Shown: in pieces, positions 6,982 through 9,468 of the stretch
How the letters are laid out: the number at the start of each line of letters is the position of its first letter
Position numbering within the stretch: the first letter of the stretch is position 1
Position numbers and translations under genes: made by a program
DNA from: Sphingobacterium rhinopitheci
GTDB taxonomy: Bacteria > Bacteroidota > Bacteroidia > Sphingobacteriales > Sphingobacteriaceae
DNA length: 64,000 bases
Assembly (NCBI RefSeq): GCF_022627575.1
Contig: NZ_JADEYQ010000005.1
Coordinates: forward strand, 1-64,000
Reading direction: 5' to 3'
The notes under the pieces: model-generated
Seen by the model: only the letters and a program-made list of their open reading frames with translations
Database searches by the model: none
Told to the model about the DNA's origin: nothing

Positions 6982-7012
6982 CATAGTCGTACTATAATTA
7001 GTGGAAAGAGAA

Positions 7013-8260
7013 ATGATAGACAAATCGATATTTGAAGTAATGGCACCTGCAGGCTCTAAAGAAGCTATGGCGGCGGCCATAAAAGCTGGTGCAAATTCCG
7101 TATATTTTGGTATTGAGCAGCTCAATATGCGGGCACGCCAAACGAATAATTTCCTTATTGAAGATCTTCCAGAGATTGCGGAGCTGTGTAATAGCCATAA
7201 TGCAAAAAGCTATATCACGCTAAATACGATCATCTATGACCATGATATCTCCTTGATGCGACGCATCATAGATCAAGCCAAAGAAGCTGGTATATCTGCC
7301 GTCATCGCTTCAGACCTAGCTGTGATGAGCTACTGCCGCAAGGTAGGTATGGAAGTCCATATCAGTACACAATCCAATATCACCAATATAGAAACTGTAG
7401 AATTCTATGCTACATATGCTGACGTAATGGTGATGGCGCGCGAATTGACCCTCAAACAGGTTGCCGATATTGTCAAAGTAATAGCGAAAAATGATATCCG
7501 TGGACCTAAGGGAGAACTTGTCCAGGTAGAAATATTTGCTCATGGTGCTTTATGTATGGCTGTGAGCGGCAAATGCTACCTTAGCCTACACTCTCACAAT
7601 GCATCAGCTAACCGCGGTGCTTGCATACAAAACTGCCGTCGTGAATATACGGTAACCGATGAGGAAGGTATCGAATTAAAGATTGACAACGAATACATTA
7701 TGTCGGCGAAAGACCTATGTACCATTGATTTCTTAGATAAAATCCTAGAAGCGGGAGTAGGTGTCCTAAAAATAGAAGGTCGTGGACGTGCTGCTGATTA
7801 CGTTTATACCACTACCAAGTGTTATAGAGAAGCCGTCGATGCATTTGCAAATGGCACCTATACAATCGAAAAAGTAGAACAATGGAAGCATCAATTAAGT
7901 GAAGTATATAACCGAGGATTTTGGGATGGATACTATCTAGGTCGAAAAATGGGGGAATGGTCCAATGTACATGGCTCTGTGGCGACCAAGCGTAAAATAT
8001 ACCTTGGCAAAGGCATAAAATATTTTGATAAAGTGGCCGTTGGCGAATTCATAATAGAAAGCCAATCCTTACAGAAAGGAGATAAAATAATCGTCACTGG
8101 ACCTACCACAGGATTTGTAGAAACAGAAGTGCAGGAGATACGATTAGATTCGGGGGAAATAGTAGACAAAGCAAGCAAAGGACAAACGATATCCTTCAAA
8201 ATCGCAGATAAAATAAGACCATCGGACAAACTTTACAAAATCGTCGAAGCTAATGCCTAA
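7013..8260 (+). CDS. U32-family protein (TrhP/RlhA-like RNA hydroxylase)
   Basis: Member of peptidase family U32. Characterised bacterial relatives are iron-sulfur proteins that hydroxylate tRNA or rRNA (TrhP, RlhA) or act in anaerobic ubiquinone synthesis (UbiU/V). The N-terminal barrel starts VMAPAGSKEAM. The U32 signature EIFAHGALCMAVSGKC is present, followed by two more cysteines in GACIQNC, giving a four-cysteine set that suits a 4Fe-4S cluster. A GTG 12 bp upstream is possible, but the ATG at 7013 is preceded by GGAAAGAG at good spacing. The stop overlaps the ferredoxin start by 8 bp. A tRNA-uridine-34 hydroxylase role is the best guess, not proven. Confidence 0.85.
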   Translation: MIDKSIFEVMAPAGSKEAMAAAIKAGANSVYFGIEQLNMRARQTNNFLIEDLPEIAELCNSHNAKSYITLNTIIYDHDISLMRRIIDQAKEAGISAVIASDLAVMSYCRKVGMEVHISTQSNITNIETVEFYATYADVMVMARELTLKQVADIVKVIAKNDIRGPKGELVQVEIFAHGALCMAVSGKCYLSLHSHNASANRGACIQNCRREYTVTDEEGIELKIDNEYIMSAKDLCTIDFLDKILEAGVGVLKIEGRGRAADYVYTTTKCYREAVDAFANGTYTIEKVEQWKHQLSEVYNRGFWDGYYLGRKMGEWSNVHGSVATKRKIYLGKGIKYFDKVAVGEFIIESQSLQKGDKIIVTGPTTGFVETEVQEIRLDSGEIVDKASKGQTISFKIADKIRPSDKLYKIVEANA

Positions 8261-8523: not shown

Positions 8524-9400
8524 TTGTCATCCTGACGACAGGAAGGATGTAATACCTTACTAAAGATGTTTCACTATGCTCAACATGACAAACCCATTTG
8601 ACGGCAGGAAGGATCTAATACCTTACTAGAGATGTTTCCTTGCACTCAACATGACAAACCCATATGACGAAAGGAAGGATCTAACACAATACTGGAGATG
8701 TTTCCTTGCACTCAACATGACAAACCCATTTGACGAAAGGAAGGATCTAACACCTAAGCTGAGATGTACCCCTGCACTCAACATGACAAACCCATTTGAC
8801 GACAGGAAGGATCTAACACAATACTAGAGATGTTTCCTTGTGCTCAACATGACAAACCGATTTCAAGACAGGAAGGATCTAACACAATACTAGAGATGTT
8901 TCACTATGTTCAACATGACAAACCGATTTGACGAAAGGAAGGATCTAACACAATACTGGAGATGTTTCCTTGCACTCAACATGACAAACCCATTTAACGA
9001 CAGGAAGGATCTAATACCTTACTAGAGATGTTTCCTTGTGCTCAACATGACAAACCCATTTAACGACAGGAAGGATCTAACACAATACTAGAGATGTTTC
9101 CTTGTACTCAACATGACAAACCCATTTAACGACAGGAAGGATCTAATACCTTACTAGAGATGTTTCCTTGCACTTAACATAACATACCGATATGACGAAA
9201 GGAAGGATCTATATACCTTACTAGAGATGTTTCCTTGTGCTCAACATGACAAACCCATTTAACGACAGGAAGGATCTAACACTATACTAGAGATGTTTCC
9301 TTGCACTTAACATAACAAACCCATTTGACGACAGGAAGGATCTAACACTATATTAGAGAGGTTTCCTTGTGCTCAACATAACAAAACATATGCATTGTCA
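8524..9400. repeat. Array of 13 tandem 66-bp repeats (REP-like)
   Basis: The core GGAAGGAT begins at 8541, 8607, 8673, 8739, 8805, 8871, 8937, 9003, 9069, 9135, 9201, 9268 and 9334, an exact 66-bp period with one 67-bp step. Each unit holds AGGAAGGATCT and, 13 nt later, AGATGTTTCCT, which pair over 11 positions with one mismatch and one G-U. The outer ends (TTGTCATCCTGA at the left, TCAACATGACAA inside each unit) are also complementary. This suggests a tandemly amplified palindromic repeat of the GTCATCCTGA type found between genes in this phylum. Stops occur in all six frames of the consensus, so it is non-coding. It fills the whole gap between the ferredoxin and aminotransferase genes. Confidence 0.95.
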
Positions 9401-9460
9401 TCTTGAAAAAAATGCAATACATAACTTAAAAAGTTAGTTTTTATACAACATTTTCCTTTG

Positions 9461-9468
9461 TACCTTTG
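9461..9468 (+). promoter_or_regulatory. Aminotransferase promoter, -7 element TACCTTTG
   Basis: Perfect TAnnTTTG only 4 nt before the ATG at 9473. With the 5-nt motif-to-start distance seen at rnpB, transcription would begin on the A of the start codon (leaderless). The same 15-mer recurs at 49219-49233 on the minus strand. Confidence 0.6.

Follow-up and report, generated by a model that had tools for sequence, protein, structure and literature searches.

A tandem array of truncated, TGTC-tagged REP-like dimers in an intergenic region of Sphingobacterium rhinopitheci

The window considered here, the whole stretch of 64,000 nucleotides that was analysed, belongs to contig C46, one of the 63 contigs of a Sphingobacterium genome of 3.69 Mb. 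At positions 8524-9384 it carries an intergenic array of 13 units, with a period of 66 bp and a single step of 67 bp, which is preceded by a U32-peptidase-like gene and a short ferredoxin-like ORF and followed by an aminotransferase gene (Table 1). TAnnTTTG is the -7 promoter motif of Bacteroidota, and if the similar octamer TACCTTTG were a promoter element, the start of transcription would fall downstream of the array. In Sphingobacterium sp. T2 (L082) the gene order at the matching junction is kept, with about 70 bp between the genes, and no element or array was found there.

Table 1. Features in and around the array, in window positions
Feature	Position	Strand	Basis or remark
U32-peptidase-like gene, 5' of the ferredoxin-like ORF	7001-8260		
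4Fe-4S ferredoxin-like ORF, upstream of the array, 75 aa	8253..8480	+	Cysteine motif CIGCNAC...CP; no NCBIfam match
Unit 1, intact REP dimer	8524..8591	+	Half-site scan; 1 mismatch in the left half (GGATGT)
Unit 1, left half	8526-8550		Half-site scan
Unit 1, spacer (13 nt)	8551-8563		Half-site scan
Unit 1, right half	8564-8589		Half-site scan
Units 2-13, 12 tandem truncated units	8590..9383	+	Lacking 5 bp of the linker and the left tag GTCATCC
Unit 11, 67-bp unit	9184..9250	+	One additional base after GGATCT
Right border	9384..9422	+	Intact linker AAACATATGCATT, then decayed left half-site GTCATCTTGA... (9397-9422, 3 mismatches)
TACCTTTG, candidate -7 promoter element	9461..9468	+	Resemblance to TAnnTTTG, read from the sequence
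Acetylornithine/ornithine-type aminotransferase, downstream of the array, about 394 aa	9476..10660	+	Start approximate

An earlier note, made from the letters of this DNA, had described thirteen copies at this period, and both ways of counting agree with it. The core GGAAGGAT occurs 13 times from 8541 to 9334, spaced by 66 bp and once by 67, and Tandem Repeats Finder (TRF) returned for the whole window a sole array (8533-9385, period 66, 12.9 copies, 87% matches) with a score of 1197, against a top score of 69 among 20 versions of the window randomised by a first-order Markov model. The units run head to tail and those from 2 to 13 have a mean identity of 87%, with the CA/TG/TA and TTTGACG/TTTAACG variants occurring as first described. 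Spacer and loop variants are shuffled among the units, a sign of exchange between them. The arms (GGAAGGATCT, AGATGTTTC and CAACAT) vary less than the spacer and loops across the 13 units; this could reflect some selection on pairing, 13 related units being too few to show it. A coding repeat, conceivable since 66 bp equal 22 codons, was ruled out by the lack of any ORF longer than 58 aa inside the array, and a CRISPR array was rejected because the head-to-tail units have no unique spacers and no cas-like gene stands among the ORFs listed nearby. The curated covariance models of Rfam gave no match to the array.

The anatomy of the unit is best seen in its first copy, the only one in which the left boundary TTGTCATCCTGA is intact, as the earlier note had pointed out. 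Unit 1 consists of two inverted half-sites of the form GTCAT-NN-TGA-n-GAA-NN-ATCT separated by a 13-nt spacer, the arrangement of two inverted REPs in one unit that characterizes REPINs. Each half-site can be drawn as a hairpin with a 3-nt loop, in which two G.A oppositions separate five outer pairs from two inner ones. The two NN dinucleotides are complementary in 97 of the 104 exact half-sites of the array genome and in 38 of 39 sampled in a related complete genome (G004), where the halves of the dimers retain complementarity within their own stems. Moreover, an alignment of 35 differing half-sites, hand-picked from listings of the genus and the class, revealed compensatory changes on both sides at four of the seven pairs, with covariation between the free positions 6-22, 7-21, 11-17 and 12-16; 95.9% of its cells are paired, and a shift of the partner by one column destroys the pairing. 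The pairs A4-T24 and T5-A23 are present in 35/35 half-sites, with their letters fixed in the search pattern. Since the pattern had set every letter except those of NN and the loop region, and the rows were picked by hand, the evidential weight lies in the free positions alone, and the compensatory changes at these argue that each half folds as a separate hairpin. A DNA energy model gives such short hairpins little stability, a result that is not decisive because the model may not describe G.A pairs and special loops well. The GTC of the tag and the CT tail were likewise set by the pattern; the preceding T is read in unit 1 (TTGTCAT) and in most intact half-sites of the arrays, where the CT tail is read too. 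Altogether, the array unit is, as judged from its letters, a damaged REP dimer of the REPIN type, so that the REP-like element originally proposed stands and is refined to a head-to-head dimer of TGTC-tagged hairpins. On the other hand, the 11-position hairpin assigned to every unit (AGGAAGGATCT/AGATGTTTCCT) exists in several units and is missing from others, unit 4 among them.

Elements of this kind recall the CGTC-tagged REPs of Di Nocera et al. (2013, PMC3733652), a group that includes dRS3 of Neisseria and RPE-4 and RPE-6 of Rickettsia, forms clusters in Neisseria and Wolbachia and is reported in Bacteroidetes. The superfamily has C/TGTC tags, A-T first stem pairs, head-to-head dimers, stems of 8-9 bp, loops of 4-5 nt, an unpaired 3' tail that is mostly CCA, and no dedicated transposase. 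The Sphingobacterium half-site shares with it the unpaired T/CGTC tag, the two A-T pairs at the start of the stem, a mostly head-to-head dimeric form, often with unlike halves, the intergenic location and, by searches with PF01797 and NF047646, the lack of an associated dedicated transposase. It has a stem of seven canonical pairs plus two G.A oppositions, and differs in its 3-nt loop and in a CT instead of a CCA tail. Its sequence thus fits the CGTC/TGTC kind while falling outside the four families described there, from which it is set apart by their text descriptions only. As for clustering, the GTAG-23 REPs of T. roseum also occur as large blocks at few loci according to the same source, but they carry a GTAG tag and belong to a different phylum. 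Tandem REPIN clusters that include flanking sequence were described by Bertels and Rainey (2011, PMC3116915), and the likeness extends to both the inverted pair of REPs and its tandem repetition; the ordered clusters of Pseudomonas SBW25 have up to four REPINs in a genome with associated RAYTs, whereas the array of Sphingobacterium comprises 13 units, all but one truncated, and a cognate transposase was not found. Among open-access papers we found no literature on such elements in Sphingobacteria, and literature searches by the raw element sequence gave chance primer matches only.

The array is one of several in its genome. A pattern scan found 104 exact half-sites, against 2 for a reversed control pattern, and all of them (104/104) lie inside 12 intergenic clusters, either arrays or short groups, which include 22 clean head-to-head dimers; the remark that long arrays are less usual for such elements holds in general but not for this genome. 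Each cluster has its own TRF period, from 66 to several hundred bp, which indicates that tandem growth is a local habit. The same spread bears on the idea of a regularly spaced binding array for a nucleoid protein, gyrase or repressor. A constant period and conserved arms agree with such an array, but the sister arrays have other periods, and 66 bp, taken by the earlier note as about six helical turns, make 6.3 turns at 10.5 bp each, which would place the sites out of phase; this explanation is extremely improbable. Three clusters sit directly 3' of 5S rRNA genes at contig ends (L060:1-740, L061:5020-5613 and L065:4560-6014) and have 127-183 identical bp in common, including the end of the 5S gene, because of which the contigs break there; consequently, the copy number is a lower estimate. 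Such breaks beside rrn operons, in an assembly of 63 contigs, are what could make the window array itself look like an assembly artefact. Against it, units 2-13 all differ from one another (maximum identity 97%), unique flanks are joined to the array on both sides, and the family forms tandem arrays in other assemblies (G030 and G095, with periods of 55 and other lengths), some of them within one contig, so that the probability of an artefact is close to nil.

The remaining clusters lie behind four tRNAs, in the trpD-trpF and nuoH-nuoI intervals (gene names read from ORF translations) and between co-directional or convergent genes. In the trp cluster, a short array of period 118 (L062:4627-4992) separates the trpD-like and trpF-like genes, and a two-unit 67-bp repeat with single left half-sites (L066:4890-5091) separates the nuoH-like and nuoI-like ones. 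That the former, on contig C8, had replaced trpC was ruled out: trpE-G-C lie elsewhere in the array genome, and in G004 likewise trpC follows trpG without adjoining D or F, so nothing was replaced.

This distribution leads to the proposal that the array works as RNA, as a row of 3' UTR hairpins of the ferredoxin-like operon blocking exonucleases or insulating the downstream gene. No cluster whose two neighbours could be seen stands between divergent genes, the arrays are located behind coding genes, three 5S rRNA genes and four tRNAs or inside the trp and nuo intervals, and intact dimers fold better than their shuffles (z of -2.7 in another array of the genome, on contig C2, and -4.6 in G004). 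Nevertheless, the folded units of the window array give RNA z-scores of -0.5 to -2.8 (most between -0.5 and -1.7, one of -2.8), most thus near their shuffles, their left hairpin is deleted, the right-half stem has no compensatory change within the array, no terminator was found, and the array is absent from the matching junction of Sphingobacterium sp. T2. Such a function is therefore unlikely for this array, and no feature of it speaks for a dedicated role of any kind, with no terminator, RNA family, ORF or helical phasing found and most folded units weak. Transcribed hairpins might still serve a role at the ends of genes; most likely the array is, in the cell, near-neutral DNA of a 3' flank, and transcription from the upstream operon, if it occurs, would yield a row of weak hairpins from it.

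The origin of the array is best approached by comparison with the C2 array. There the units are of 78 bp, made up of a linker (14 nt) and a dimer (64 bp) whose left tag is intact, and relative to a linker and left half like AAACATTTACCATT-GTCATCC-TGA the window unit reads AAAC-CCATT-TGACGA and is 12 bp shorter. The loss takes part of the linker and the left tag GTCATCC, thereby one strand of the left stem, so that the left hairpin is gone. The right half is complete in most of units 2-13, and in most of them its inner stem pair is lost too, G facing G, as decay of the copies would lead one to expect. Both outer borders are intact, the left one in unit 1 and the right one in the linker and tag (AAACATATGCATT-GTCATC) that reappear 3' of unit 13 at 9384-9402, a detail absent from the earlier note, which indicates that the borders are ancestral and the truncated repeat confined to the inside. 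The unit, whose absence elsewhere the earlier note had named, together with constancy among strains, as evidence against its reading, recurs in the C2 array, which contains one near-complete copy of the truncated form that has an exact run of 64 bp in common with the window array. The two arrays have 64 distinct 24-mers in common, versus 0-2 for the window array and each other array.

Taken together, these comparisons of sequence make it probable that the array arose from a crippled REP dimer by tandem expansion on the spot, and that arrays exchanged sequence with one another. An ancestral TGTC-tagged head-to-head dimer of about 64 bp (78 bp with its linker) would have stood between the genes for the ferredoxin-like protein and the aminotransferase; a deletion of 12 bp would have taken the tag and one strand of the stem from its left half and left a 66-bp unit; unequal recombination or replication slippage would have raised this unit to 12 copies at the same site; and tracts of sequence would have been exchanged with the related array on C2. 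The order of deletion, tandem expansion and exchange, like their mechanism, is what we infer from the units themselves, and the truncated unit in C2 could alternatively stem from the transfer of a longer segment and not from recombination. Of the origin first proposed, amplification through the junction AACCCATTTGACGA agrees with this scheme, but the source can hardly have been a single isolated palindrome, since that junction is the 12-bp deletion relative to the 78-bp C2 unit and the truncated unit exists in C2 as well.

The same family is found well beyond this genome, with half-sites in 40 of 94 genomes of the genus and in 52 of 149 genomes of a class-wide sample. In G004, 248 half-sites form mostly scattered dimers, at least 75 of them paired head-to-head, along one contig. 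A replichore strand bias there was ruled out, the plus-strand sites having a minus-strand partner about 45 bp on. The halves of a dimer tend to differ: 22/22 dimers of the array genome have different NN in their halves, and among the G004 dimers listed 11/75 have identical NN in both, against a permutation mean of 31.4. In G150, the halves are mostly identical, so this rule is lineage specific. Four genomes from other families of the class (G150, G173, G129 and G137) have 48-204 TGTC half-sites, and in G173 the halves differ. The dimer also appears in 30 of 2.9 million viral contigs (L219-L248), in several near the contig end (e.g. L220, L230 and L238), possibly as host DNA flanking proviruses. 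In the array genome the TGTC family survives as arrays only, versus the dispersed dimers of G004.

How these elements move has been considered in the light of the REP transposases. A search of the array genome with PF01797 gave no Y1 transposase match, and NF047646 gave one match, to a divergent RAYT-like ORF on C2 (19043-19519) at a distance of about 48 kb from the array of that contig. The coding region of this ORF (locus L206:2987-3610, G000:C2) has a palindromic insert, GGGCGAAAGTAAGGGTG...CACCCTTACTTTCGCCC, that is unrelated to the TGTC element, and the 7 kb read around it contain no convincing TGTC element, so that nothing ties the ORF to the array and the associated RAYT that the earlier note had proposed looking for did not materialize. 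Related genes of G020 also have internal palindromes, which in RAYT-like genes fit subclass 2.4 of PMC6006769, and by this feature the ORF and the G020 genes would fit that subclass. In G004 no Y1 or RAYT match was obtained with PF01797, NF047646 or a genus-specific alignment, and a cognate RAYT gene was found neither in the array genome (G000) nor in G004. Across the genus, PF01797 matches have no obvious link with half-site copy number. Multi-copy IS200-like elements are suggested for two genomes, G036 and G002, whose Y1_Tnp matches number 19 and 12 and in many cases fall at contig ends.

A RAYT acting repeatedly at the locus could in principle have built the array, given that the dimers resemble REPINs, that spacers and linkers are common to several loci and that one RAYT-like ORF exists in the genome. 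Nevertheless, the foreign palindrome inside this ORF and the surrounding 7 kb speak against it, as does G004, rich in half-sites and lacking such a gene by three models, and units 2-13 are without the left tag and the left hairpin, on which such an enzyme would depend; this origin is very improbable. The mostly scattered dimers of G004, in the same negative searches by three models, rather raise the tentative and somewhat doubtful suggestion that some enzyme other than Y1/RAYT moves the TGTC/CGTC REP dimers of Sphingobacterium.

Local expansion of a damaged dimer would make the array itself an ordinary repeat expansion. The TGTC-tagged REP dimers to which it belongs, on the other hand, form a clear family within Bacteroidota whose compensatory changes are strong, and the array is of interest mainly because such elements multiply in related genomes without a findable matching transposase. 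In this regard, the dispersed elements of G004 and the array-only genome described here offer a useful natural comparison within one genus, and the complete genome of G004, with 248 half-sites and no Y1 found, is a direct search ground for what moves CGTC-type REPs.
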